From an uncultured Schlesneria sp. (lineage in GTDB: Bacteria > Planctomycetota > Planctomycetia > Planctomycetales > Planctomycetaceae), in assembly GCA_903834925.1 (NCBI GenBank), contig CAILLA010000071.1:1-58057 (forward strand): a stretch of DNA of 58,057 nt, in the 5' to 3' direction. The notes below the pieces were generated by a model. It did no database searches, was not told where the DNA came from, and saw only the letters and a program-made list of their open reading frames with translations. Both the position numbers and the translations under genes were made by a program. Every line of letters begins with the position of its first letter. The stretch's first letter is position 1. This document shows, piece by piece, positions 9,757-54,872 of the stretch.

Positions 9757-9829
9757 GCCCCCATCGTCTAGAGGCCCAGGATGCAGGATTCTCAGTCCTG
9801 ATACACGGGTTCGAATCCCGTTGGGGGTA
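9757..9829 (+). tRNA. tRNA-Glu (anticodon CTC)
   Basis: A 73-nt cloverleaf. The acceptor stem GCCCCCA pairs with TGGGGGT (first pair G-U), and the D arm is GTCTAGAGGCCCAGGAT. The anticodon stem is CAGGA/TCCTG with loop TTCTCAG, giving CTC. The T arm is ACGGG-TTCGAAT-CCCGT and the discriminator is A. The 3' CCA is not encoded. The D arm and TTCGAAT loop match bacterial tRNA-Glu closely. The next gene starts 163 bp downstream. Confidence 0.96.
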
Positions 9830-29945: not shown

Positions 29946-30040
29946 ATTGGGGTAGACCTACACACCCCTGGCTATTTGAACTGCTGACCCAGAACATTCG
30001 ACCTGATGTTTTCCCGGCCTGAAGGGCCATCACAAATCAG

Positions 30041-30086
30041 CCCAGGGCAGAGCGATGCGGCATCAGCCGCGAAGCGCCGCCCTGGG
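30041..30086. repeat. 46-nt palindromic repeat hairpin
   Basis: Outer arms CCCAGGGC and GCCCTGGG (8 bp) enclose an inner stem GCGGC-ATCA-GCCGC. Just upstream is GGCCTGAAGGGCC, a further small palindrome. It lies about 95 bp after glgX; without a T-run it is not a classic terminator. Confidence 0.6.
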
Positions 30087-30159
30087 GTCCGTATGCGTTG
30101 AAATTTCCAGCCCTGTTAAGGCAACGCCGCCATGATTTTTCAAAACGGTACTGAGTGAC

Positions 30160-30257
30160 GTGCCACTGCATCGGAGTCTTCTCCGACGCAGTGCTCTTCG
30201 CAATTTTCGTTGGCTTCAAAGAGCACTGAGTGACCGAAGACGGTCATTCAGTGGCAC
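30160..30257. repeat. Cloverleaf-forming dispersed element, copy A (98 bp)
   Basis: Begins GTGCCAC and ends GTGGCAC. Within 98 nt the closing stem GTGC/GCAC (1-4/95-98) encloses three arms. Arm 1 (5-34) is a 13-bp stem with one mismatch and loop TCTT. A middle arm pairs CTCTT with AAGAG (35-39/60-64). Arm 2 (65-94) is a 13-bp stem with one G-U pair and loop AAGA. Copies B and C are at 39298 and 53261. Confidence 0.7.
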
Positions 30258-30528
30258 AAGATTTCGTTCGAACCCTTGTTTTCCCAAAGAAAAATCCTGG
30301 CGTTGCTGTTAAGGGCGACACAAACGATCTCGGAAACGCTGGCTGACCGATCGATTTGTTAACTCGCGAGGTGAATCAGATTTCGTGTTGATCAAACTGG
30401 CGTCGTCATTCGTTAACGTGCGGCAGGATAGTCGGACGAAAAATGCGGCATCGCCGCGCTGCCAACAGAAATTGTGCTGCCCTTGAAAGGGCGGACGTTA
30501 CCAATCCCTGCACACCCAGGGCGACGCG

Positions 30529-39092: not shown

Positions 39093-39421
39093 GAGGAAAA
39101 TCTCCGCAGAGCGTACGCGGTCATCTCAAAACTAAGAATACACTTCCACGATATGCAAACCCAATGCCGTCAAGCAAGCTGGAGGGATTCAATCAATATT
39201 CTTGTGCTGTGAAATCGGGCAGGGCGTCGAATTCCAGCAGCCGAACGAATTTGTGTCTATTGATGCGTTTTCGGCAAGGTTTGGGTGTGATCTTCATGTG
39301 CCACTGCTTGAACTTACTCGGTCAAGCAGTGCTATTTGACCGTTGTAACGAGAAGCCACTCCGTTCTACGAAGACTCCGAAGCAGTGGCACAAGATCCCG
39401 ATGTCGCAGTTTGCCAAGCGA
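39093..39421. other. Intergenic region containing cloverleaf copy B
   Basis: 329 bp. Beyond the 94-bp element no gene or RNA was recognised. Confidence 0.5.
39298..39391. repeat. Cloverleaf-forming dispersed element, copy B (94 bp)
   Basis: Begins GTGCCACTGC and ends GCAGTGGCAC. Closing stem GTGC/GCAC; arm 1 has a 10-bp perfect stem (CACTGCTTGA/TCAAGCAGTG). The middle arm and arm 2 are weaker in this copy, four matched pairs at the base of arm 2. Located between glnA and a membrane gene. Confidence 0.65.
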
Positions 39422-52163: not shown

Positions 52164-53102
52164 GTGAATCGCGTTGATTTCTTTTCAAAAAAGGTGCGTA
52201 ACGGATTTACGCTGATCGAGTTGCTGGTAGTGACAGCAATTATCGCTGTCCTGGTGAGTCTACTTTTGCCGGCCGTCCAGCAGGCACGTGAGGCCGCTCG
52301 TCGAACTCAATGTAAGAACAATCTGAAGCAGATCGGTCTGGCCATGCAGAATTACTGCGACTTATACAGCCGATTTCCTCCTGGATATGTCGCCAGTTCA
52401 GATACGACTGCGACAACTCCGGGTTGGGGTTGGAGTGTGATGATTCTTCCTCAAATCGATCAATTTTCACTTTTTGGATTGTTCAATTTCAGTTTTCCGA
52501 TCGAACATCCTTTGAACTCGGTTCCTGTTGGGACGAGATTGCCAACGTTCGTCTGCCCGTCAGACATTGCCCCGGACGGAACCTTCTCGATTACAAATTC
52601 GGCGTCCCTTCAAGTCGTTCAAACGGGCCCGAGCAGTTTTGTTGGATGCGTTGGAAACGATTCATCCGATGTCGATGACAACGTGAATCCAGGAAATGGA
52701 ATGCTCTTTCGCAACAGCAATATCCGTTTTGCCGAGGTATTAGATGGAACGTCAAATACGATTCTTGTGGCAGAACGATCGTGGTCTCAAGCAAAAGGGA
52801 GTTGGATCGGCGCACCCAATAAAGGCCGCTTACGAGCAGGGTCAAAAAATCCCGCCGCTCCGCTTGATGAAGCATCGTCATTTCACGTATTGGGTCATGC
52901 CCATTGGATCAATACTATGAATGATCCTGATGGAGGGTTGGACGATTTTTCCAGCCTGCACTCAGGCGGCGTCAATGCTCTGTTCGTCGATGGCTCGGTT
53001 CGGTTCTTGCATTCGGTGACAAGCGATGGCGGTTCGGCGAATATCCTTCAGGCACTGGGAACTCGTGCTGGAGGTGAAATTACCGCCGACTTTGGCTATT
53101 GA
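52164..53102 (+). CDS. DUF1559 prepilin-like protein, copy 1
   Basis: 312 residues from GTG 52164. A type IV pilin/pseudopilin N-terminus (GFTLIELLVVTAIIAVLVSL) has the prepilin peptidase site just before Phe, followed by the diagnostic VQQAREAARRTQCKNNLKQI and a DUF1559 body ending GGVNALFVDGSVRFLH and GGEITADFGY. The DUF1559 family is greatly expanded in planctomycetes; its function is not settled, perhaps surface pseudopili. It is preceded by the Fur-like site. Confidence 0.93.
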   Translation: MNRVDFFSKKVRNGFTLIELLVVTAIIAVLVSLLLPAVQQAREAARRTQCKNNLKQIGLAMQNYCDLYSRFPPGYVASSDTTATTPGWGWSVMILPQIDQFSLFGLFNFSFPIEHPLNSVPVGTRLPTFVCPSDIAPDGTFSITNSASLQVVQTGPSSFVGCVGNDSSDVDDNVNPGNGMLFRNSNIRFAEVLDGTSNTILVAERSWSQAKGSWIGAPNKGRLRAGSKNPAAPLDEASSFHVLGHAHWINTMNDPDGGLDDFSSLHSGGVNALFVDGSVRFLHSVTSDGGSANILQALGTRAGGEITADFGY

Positions 53103-53260
53103 TTATGAAACTAACGTTGAATTTCTTCGCGCTCCCTGAAGTAGGTACACGTATCGACGAAGCGGTTCAGCGGGAACCTCGCCCTGGCCTGCTGAACTGG
53201 CCAAGTAGATGCACGGAATACTGCTGCGCTTTGTGAGTAAATTAGCAATCGAAACCCGGT

Positions 53261-53358
53261 GTGCCACGGTTTTGGAGTCCTCGACAAGGCCGCGTCCTCA
53301 TTGGTCGATAACGCGTTCGAAGAGGACCGCCTTACCGAAGACGGTAAAACCGTGGCAC
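53261..53358. repeat. Cloverleaf-forming dispersed element, copy C (98 bp)
   Basis: Begins GTGCCACGG and ends CCGTGGCAC. Closing stem GTGC/GCAC; arm 1 (5-34) pairs CGGTTTTG with CAAGGCCG using two G-U pairs; the middle arm pairs TCCTC with GAGGA; the tip of arm 2 pairs TTACCG and CGGTAA around AAGA. The sequence differs from copy A in every arm while most pairing is kept. Confidence 0.65.
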
Positions 53359-53462
53359 CCATCATCGCAGCTTTTTGTTCGAAAAGCTCTTCGTCACTGG
53401 CGACACAAAAATCCCACGTTCATGTTGTTTCATCACGCCAGCCTCGCCCTCCCGGATGGGTT

Positions 53463-53477
53463 GCGGGCAAAGCCCGC
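53463..53477 (-). terminator. Hairpin after the NtrC-type gene
   Basis: GCGGGC-AAA-GCCCGC, 7 bp after the regulator's stop codon on the minus strand. There is no T-run, so a factor-independent terminator is uncertain. Confidence 0.4.
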
Positions 53478-53483
53478 GCTGGG

Positions 53484-54872
53484 TCAATCCGATGCCTTTG
53501 ACCCAAGCTTCGTACGCAGTGTTGCTCGGTCAAGTCCAAGCAGTTTTGCGGCGCCACTGCGGTTTTGTTGAGTAAAAGAAAGAACCTCATTCAGCAAGGC
53601 GGTATCGGCAACGATTGAAAAACGTCGGTAAAGATCGTTCATGCCTGCATTTTGAGGTTCGCCGAGTTGTCGCTGAACCCACGATGCAATTGCGAGTCGA
53701 AGTTCTTCGACGGATTCAGTTCCAGGCGGAAAATCAATCGGCGACGGCGGAAGATGTTCTGCGACCAACGGGCCACCACGCGAAAGAACGACCGCATGAT
53801 CGATCGCGTTTCGTAATTCGCGGATATTGCCTGGCCAGGTTCTCTTTTCGACTTCTGCCCAGAATTCATCGGTGACATTCGGCTTCATCGAATTCAGATG
53901 TCTTCCGATAAAATATTCGACTAGCGGCCTGAGATCCTCGCGGTGAGACCGTAACGGCGGAAGTTCGATCGCAAAGACTTTCAGCCGGTGATACAGGTCT
54001 TCTCGAAAATTGTGTTCGACGATCATGGTCCTGAGATCGCGGTTCGTGGCGGCGAGCACTCTGGCGTTGGTCGTCCGTTCGTGGCTGGTTCCAACACGCG
54101 TGAAGGAATGGGATTCAAGAACACGTAACAGTTTCACTTGAATCGCAGGTGGAGTCTCACCGATCTCGTCGAGAAAGATCGTCCCGTTTTCGGCCAGTTC
54201 GAACAGCCCCTGCCGATCTTCGGTGGCTCCGGTGAAAGCTCCTTTTCCGTGTCCGAACAGTTCACTTTCGATGACCGATGGATTCAAGCTTGCGAGACTG
54301 ACTCGCACAAATGGGTCGCTACGGCGGTTGCTATGCCGATGGATCGCCTCGGCAACGAGCTCTTTTCCTGTCCCCGTTTCACCGGTGATCAGGATGGGGA
54401 ATTCGGTTGGTGCCATCAAGGCGATCTGTTTGAAGATCGCCTGCATCGCTGGCCCGTGGCCGATCAATTGATTTGCTTGGGCGGGCTGGGAAGGACCCGT
54501 CGTTTCCTTTGATAGCGTCTGAATTGCGCGAGAGATCACCGACAGAAACTCGGGTAGCTCAAACGGTTTCACCAGGTATTCAAAGGCACCTCGACTGACC
54601 GCATCAACGACTGTCTGAAGATCCCCAAAGGCAGTCATGACGACAATGGGGGTCGAGGGTAATCGCTTACGGAAACCTGGGATGGCGGACAGACCATCCT
54701 GTCCTGGCAAGCGGATATCGAGCACGATCACTTCGGGGACAAACGTGTTAAGAACTTTGTCAGCCCGTTCAATCGATGCCGCAATCTGGACATCATAACC
54801 TTGATCGGTGAGCCGTTCTTTCAGGCTCCAGCAAATCGCTGGTTCGTCATCGATGATCAGAATTCGAGGCAT
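53484..54872 (-). CDS. NtrC-family sigma-54-dependent response regulator
   Basis: 462 residues: receiver domain (LDIRLPG, Asp52), AAA+ domain (Walker A ITGETGTGKE, sigma-54 contact GKGAFTGAT, Walker B TIFLDEIGE) and a Fis-type HTH at the end (RSGAAKLLGLDRATLR). It activates sigma-54 promoters. The start codon overlaps the kinase stop as TAATG, so the pair is translationally coupled. Targets are not visible; the two flanking DUF1559 genes are candidates by position only. Confidence 0.95.
   Translation of the reverse strand: MPRILIIDDEPAICWSLKERLTDQGYDVQIAASIERADKVLNTFVPEVIVLDIRLPGQDGLSAIPGFRKRLPSTPIVVMTAFGDLQTVVDAVSRGAFEYLVKPFELPEFLSVISRAIQTLSKETTGPSQPAQANQLIGHGPAMQAIFKQIALMAPTEFPILITGETGTGKELVAEAIHRHSNRRSDPFVRVSLASLNPSVIESELFGHGKGAFTGATEDRQGLFELAENGTIFLDEIGETPPAIQVKLLRVLESHSFTRVGTSHERTTNARVLAATNRDLRTMIVEHNFREDLYHRLKVFAIELPPLRSHREDLRPLVEYFIGRHLNSMKPNVTDEFWAEVEKRTWPGNIRELRNAIDHAVVLSRGGPLVAEHLPPSPIDFPPGTESVEELRLAIASWVQRQLGEPQNAGMNDLYRRFSIVADTALLNEVLSFTQQNRSGAAKLLGLDRATLRTKLGSKASD

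Follow-up and report, generated by a model that had tools for sequence, protein, structure and literature searches.

The 98-bp repeat described here, which occurs three times in a 58,057-nucleotide stretch of planctomycete DNA (the window), is probably a REPIN that was multiplied by a cognate REP-associated tyrosine transposase (RAYT), with the core of its first copy lying within a 188-bp MITE-like element. The repeat has a two-hairpin anatomy, is present in high copy number at mainly extragenic sites and lies on both flanks of a RAYT gene in this genome, and RAYT-specific stems are found in relatives. In addition, insertion of the 188-bp element duplicated 5 bp of its target, a site resembling CCC-N5-GGG. 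The window corresponds to contig C71 in a draft genome of 9.02 Mb (G000, 307 contigs), and the cores lie at 30160-30257 (copy A, plus strand), 39298-39391 (copy B, minus strand, degenerate) and 53261-53358 (copy C, plus strand, of the CACGGTTTT stem type), with lengths of 98, 94 and 98 bp and the ends GTGCCAC...GTGGCAC, just where a first-pass annotation made from the letters alone had placed them. All three are recognised by pattern and by covariance model, copies A and C also by alignment and copy B also by ortholog comparison.

Each copy is composed of two inverted repeats, namely a GTGC tag and a hairpin followed by their mirror image, with the GTGC tag on both strands. It therefore has the defining arrangement of a REPIN, two inverted REPs, each consisting of an imperfect hairpin with a tag at its foot. 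In copy A the layout is GTGC tag, hairpin, spacer, hairpin and GCAC, with hairpin 1 at 30164-30193 on the plus strand and the inverted hairpin 2 at 30224-30253 on the minus strand. From 78 collected cores, the 49 of length 96-98 were aligned in one orientation, and other lengths and duplicates were left out. Over these 49 copies, the closing stem GTGC/GCAC, described earlier as unchanged, is paired in 99.5% of cells; the further stems proposed for copies A and C are present, and the second half of copy B is degenerate, as had been noted. The idea that the arms keep their pairing through paired changes fits the side hairpins (91.8% of cells paired in hairpin 1 and 94.4% in hairpin 2) but fails for the middle arm, which is paired in 64.8% of cells over the 49 copies and in which two of the five pairs fail, in 40 and 39 copies, respectively. 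Similarly, the proposed four-arm fold is the lowest-energy type for copy A, whereas for copies B and C the best fold is a single long structure resembling a hairpin.

The covariation score of the whole structure over the 49 copies is 0.153, compared with 0.068 for shuffled and 0.02-0.06 for slid controls, a score in which related sequences can exceed shuffles. Nine pairs are changed on both sides, a number within the shuffle range (75 of 500 shuffles are as high), and the stem changes within the genome are mostly due to a small number of stem types (CACTGC, CACGGTTTT and CACTGGCGG), so that the paired changes amount to few events. A rival fold, a hairpin over the whole length, is paired in 74.7% of cells and has a covariation score of 0.105 over the same 49 copies. 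At the telling positions the local hairpins do better than the long one: columns 70-89 are paired in 39 of 49 copies, and the long-hairpin pair 10-89 fails in 28 of 49. What is kept is the two tagged hairpins and not the whole cloverleaf.

The copies are not chance matches, since a strict search by ends and length (GTGCCAC-N70-100-GTGGCAC) gives 272 matches in the source genome and 1 for the reversed pattern, and since a covariance model finds all three. This model, for which the first-pass annotation had called, was built from 49 sequences that include copies A and C but not copy B; it recovers the three copies with better-strand E-values of 7.1e-21, 9e-14 and 5.9e-9, matching both strands of each. 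BLAST with copy A alone yields 46 matches in the same genome, and some cores are arranged in tandem (contigs C43 and C57). Few cores are located within reading frames: of the 57 present in 853 kb, 9 are contained in ORFs at least 200 aa long, compared with 1418 of 2050 random positions, and 17 in ORFs at least 150 aa long, compared with 1512 of 2050. High copy number and mainly extragenic placement are both features of REPs and REPINs.

The strict pattern is matched at least once in 78 of 119 related genomes, in most of them at the level of the reversed control. The 14 genomes of the same genus have 102, 89, 58, 32, 17, 10, 8, 6, 2, 1, 1, 0, 0 and 0 strict matches (control 0-3), and counts above control are also found in G082 (25 versus 0), G061 (15 versus 0), G111 (12 versus 2) and G097 (6 versus 0), so counts well above control are confined to part of the genus and a few other genomes. 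The matches in G082, G097 and G111 have wholly different stems (CACGGGTTC, CACTGGCC) on the GTGC...GCAC scaffold. The covariance model, run on 18 genomes with up to 150 candidates scored in each, gives at least 150 matches in the source genome, at least 149 in both G001 and G005 and at least 134 in G002, followed by 61 in G010, 48 in G012, 38 in G008, 35 in G003, 32 in G011 and 18 in G013; counts are low in G006 (16), G004 (8) and G014 (7), and matches are absent from G007, G009, G061, G082 and G111.

The link to a RAYT is provided by a gene on another contig of the source genome (C171:4234-4722, locus L132), which scores 90.1 bits against NF047646 (REP-associated tyrosine transposase; cut-off 80) and has EHVH and YIHQNP motifs in the alignment. 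By this NCBIfam score, its HUH motif and its catalytic tyrosine motif, the predicted product is a RAYT; against Pfam Y1_Tnp it scores 18.4 bits, under the cut-off of 23. The gene has CACTGCATCGGAG-type cores, bare of either of the shell types described below, on both flanks, and a relative in G001 (L143, 87% identical) lies between arrays of CACTGCATCGGAG-type cores, so that the repeat flanks a RAYT gene, forming a REPtron, in both genomes. The stem of copy C (CACGGTTTTGGAG) flanks a different RAYT, L142 in G013. IS200/IS605 transposases were also considered as partners, but of the 10 PF01797 matches in the source genome only L045 has a GTGC hairpin nearby, and its contig ends there. Because these matches lack a clear link to the repeat, the RAYT identified by NF047646 is preferred. 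Eight of the 12 NF047646 matches in the source genome are listed, the C171 gene included; the other seven (C257 twice, C262, C84, C304, C154 and C128) have no GTGC REP pair around them, and none of the eight is close to the RAYT of the copy-C stem type.

In relatives, the tagged hairpins differ from one RAYT to the next. Flanks were examined for 27 of 70 RAYT loci (L113-L182). GTGC-tagged inverted repeats flank 10 of the 27, every one with a stem of its own (including L173 and L153, where one flank partner is one base off), 6 have GTGG-tagged flanks and 11 have other repeats or none. A further set of 80 RAYTs was drawn from named records out of at least 524 relatives, and 76 of these had usable flanks. 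Flanking inverted repeats are present at 59 of these 76 loci, and at 27 each side has a cognate hairpin with a GTG[CG] tag and a perfect stem, as against 1 of 65 shifted control windows; this perfect-stem test misses the G001 gene itself (L183), which has a stem mismatch. In a second test, 35 of 87 RAYT loci are tagged, 26 with GTGC and 9 with GTGG (control 1 of 64). Copy number and the presence of a RAYT are not strictly coupled across genomes. No RAYT close to L132 was found among all 8 NF047646 matches checked in the G005 draft (89 strict copies), among 5 of the 7 in the G008 draft (58 copies) or among 8 of the 10 in the G002 draft (32 copies), in a setting where draft assemblies break at REP arrays (contigs C171 and C306 measure 5.0 and 4.0 kb).

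At copy A, the 98-bp repeat stands as described, but the inserted unit is larger than the annotated interval. A 188-bp composite at 30120-30307, in which the inverted repeats GGCAACGCC ... GGCGTTGCT form the outer ends and the REPIN core lies between them, is flanked by a target duplication, GTTAA, at 30115-30119 and 30308-30312. The whole composite is absent from the orthologous site of G005 and G002, where the target is single (GTTAA and GCTAA, respectively): the empty site reads TTTCCAGCCCTGTTAAGGGCGACACAAACGG in G005 and is identical but for one base in G002, and in the window this sequence is split by 188 bp and a second GTTAA. Directly upstream, at 30016-30121, the window contains another repeated palindrome, CAGCCCAGGGC...GCCCTGGG, which is matched many times in the genus. 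The alignment of copy-A-type copies continues outward past the core to the ends GGCAACGCC...GGCGTTGCC, and eight exact shells of this type are found in the source genome by pattern (control 0), all of them with the core. A looser expression gives 11 matches; the 5 bases on either side of the element are identical in six of these and have one mismatch in three, whereas mispaired copies agree exactly in 1 of 110 cases; of the two outliers, L268 agrees at 2 of 5 bases and L085, probably a chance match, at none. The target of the A-type shell looks like CCC-N5-GGG. A second shell, the B-type, has the ends CTA-GTGCGTTGTCAA and CTAG/TA (4 exact, control 0); no clear duplication was found for it with a loose expression that also caught chance matches. 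The core is shared across the different shell types and the ends differ.

MITEs, for which PMC3116915 gives a definition, are short elements with terminal inverted repeats and a target duplication but without a transposase gene, and the A-type shell matches this description on every point. Unlike in MITEs generally, its centre is a REPIN that is also found bare beside a RAYT, and no parent element was found: a transposase is seen between A-type ends in none of the 22 places with one exact end pattern, a degree of exactness that could miss the parent. The first-pass annotation had allowed that the repeat might prove to belong to a transposon, and for copy A this is largely so, in the form of a REPIN inside a MITE-like shell. 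Two of the 22 places (L277 on C28 and L280 on C129 of G000) are elements of about 345 bp with A-type ends around a different, unrelated inverted hairpin pair, GGTGGCTGAGCG...GCCACC, that lacks GTGCCAC; L277 has CCATTC on both sides and L280 has no duplication. By a symmetry test, shells cover a minority of the cores, since the outer flanks are clearly symmetric in 16 of 76, two of these being tandem repeats.

Empty sites were screened for 69 cores, 57 in the source genome and 12 in stretches of three relatives. Three sites in all are empty in a relative, and in each case more than the core is absent: 188 plus 5 bp at copy A, about 149 bp at a site filled in G005 and G001 and empty in G002, and about 180 bp at a site filled in G001 and empty in G005, the latter two having no clear duplication; insertion and deletion look alike there. 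A bare 98-bp core missing without a duplication is not seen among these three sites; at another screened site only part of the core is missing in G002. The ends of the 98-bp core itself have a duplication of 0 bp in 39 of 43 cases. The place orthologous to copy B is occupied in G005 and G001 and interrupted in G002, and copy B is accordingly the older insertion, being present in these relatives as well. No empty site is available for copy C, as G001 and G002 hold other cores in the same gap (window 53100-53500), a different one of the CACTGCTTGACC type in G001 and a cut-down one in G002, as though insertion or exchange had taken place in this gap on more than one occasion.

These data bear on two narrower explanations. 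It is unlikely that the repeats are MITEs only, that is, a set of related miniature elements mobilised by at least one DDE transposase, with inner hairpins that are palindromic filler and have no link to a RAYT. The terminal inverted repeats, 5-bp duplications and clean empty site of the A-type shell fit such a model, as does the excess of the missing piece over the core at the three informative sites, but it sits poorly with different shell types that share the core and not the ends, with cores beside the source-genome RAYT that have neither shell, and with the recurrence of RAYT-specific REP stems in relatives. Conversely, the RAYT might move the core alone, the matching flanks having arisen from duplication of a larger segment or from repeated insertion into one older repeat. 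We regard this as quite improbable: the REPtron arrangement and the 60 of 76 cores without significant outer symmetry are in its favour, yet at the copy-A site G005 and G002 lack all of the 188 bp together with GTTAA, all eight exact A-type shells contain the core, and for copy A the explanation is hard to hold.

Much the least probable, and in our view barely tenable, is the reading as a structured RNA, or as a DNA cruciform with a function, selected on behalf of the host, as the first-pass annotation had suggested. The conserved pairing of the side hairpins with paired changes, on which that suggestion was based, is real; the paired changes exceed the shuffled and slid controls, folding z-scores range from -4.0 to -7.1, and the G001 ortholog of copy B has a pair in hairpin 1 that is changed on both sides, from C-G to T-A. 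A cloverleaf RNA does not follow from this, as the middle arm is not kept and copies B and C prefer another fold, the covariance model matches both strands, the copies run into the hundreds and are partly in tandem, in relatives copy B is found decaying or interrupted, and the copy-C gap of G001 and G002 is filled by other cores. The repeat had been said not to be a tRNA, which is borne out: tRNA, tmRNA and Rfam RNA identities are ruled out, no tRNA or Rfam family covering it, and the only Rfam match at gathering scores in the whole window is a tRNA at 9757-9829. Given the unconserved middle arm, the lack of an Rfam match and the hairpins that flank RAYT genes, the kept structure is best read as single-stranded DNA hairpins that would be recognised by a RAYT transposase.

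In the REPIN model that we favour, the RAYT would act as a Y1/HUH tyrosine transposase on single-stranded REP hairpins; the cognate enzyme would cut the GTGC hairpins and has probably spread, or still spreads, the core as single-stranded DNA. The A-type shell would be a MITE that depends for its movement on a different transposase, probably one of the DDE type, and part of the REPIN copies might have spread as passengers of such shells. Insertion of REPINs by the RAYT into the single-stranded tip of a folded MITE would explain their central position. Whether REPINs in this genus are MITE cargo more generally is close to an even call, and we lean slightly against it; at least two unlike shells carry a central REPIN, and the A-type ends are also found around an unrelated REP-like pair. 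If true, this would be one genomic parasite served by two enzymes, a Y1 RAYT for the single-stranded hairpins and a cut-and-paste transposase for the shell. If shells and cores are indeed nested, a REPIN population could spread without a RAYT of its own, and nested shells could explain genomes such as G005, with many copies and no close RAYT found.

In the portions of the literature used here, REPIN work to date concerns mainly proteobacteria with GTAG-type tags. The planctomycete repeats resemble the REPINs of Pseudomonas fluorescens SBW25, as far as described in the excerpts used of Bertels and Rainey (2011, PMC3116915), in having two inverted REPs and a spacer, extragenic placement, many copies, hairpin pairing with compensatory changes and a RAYT gene nearby; they differ in phylum, in tag (GTGC here, GTAG/GTGG there) and in that some copies are enclosed in longer elements that have inverted ends and target duplications. 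GTAG- and CGTC-tagged REPs, REPtrons and TIRtrons are the subject of Di Nocera and others (2013, PMC3733652, in excerpt), who also report that Planctomycetes have REPs and that REP units of Pseudomonas can adjoin stem-loops unrelated to them. Tagged hairpins and REPtrons are shared with those systems, whereas the 5-bp duplication of a composite is not described in those excerpts. TnpA-REP classes 2 and 3 (PMC6006769, in excerpt), the latter including Planctomycetes, have HuH-Y1 proteins with WQ and a YIHxNP-like motif and hairpin flanks, as here; their published tag is GT[AG]G, or CnGA for class 3, and, compared by motifs and tag, the RAYT here differs in having EHVH and GTGC hairpins. GTGC does not begin a word anywhere in the main text of PMC3733652, PMC6006769 and PMC2817692, where the published tags are GTAG, CGTC, GT[AG]G and CnGA. 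The tag found here, GTGC, is thus not the canonical GTAG/GT[AG]G; since published tags also include CGTC and CnGA and sister RAYTs here have GTGG, the tag letters are a variant trait and not part of the definition. What the planctomycetes offer is a differently tagged system, a large number of RAYT-REP pairs for comparison, and movement that can be read from the empty sites of related species.

The change between GTGC and GTGG clusters only weakly on the RAYT tree, where the tag letter appears to change 8 times compared with a shuffled mean of 10.7 (17 of 500 shuffles are as low), in a test on 43 rows with 8 labels set by eye and one very long branch. Two RAYTs flanked by GTGC REPs, L153 (G006:C128) and L167 (G010:C15:220500-224000), have HVP and HLQ in place of HUH, and may be inactive, the second histidine being lost. 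Two RAYT-like genes (L047 and L049) share the 8.4-kb contig C257 of the source genome and, by eye, adjoin Rhs/YD-repeat-like reading frames. The RAYTs L127, L128, L157 and L162 are flanked by other palindromes (CGTTCCCAAGCTGGAGCTTGGGAACG, GGTCTCCTGACC and alike), from which it follows that several REP systems coexist in the genus.
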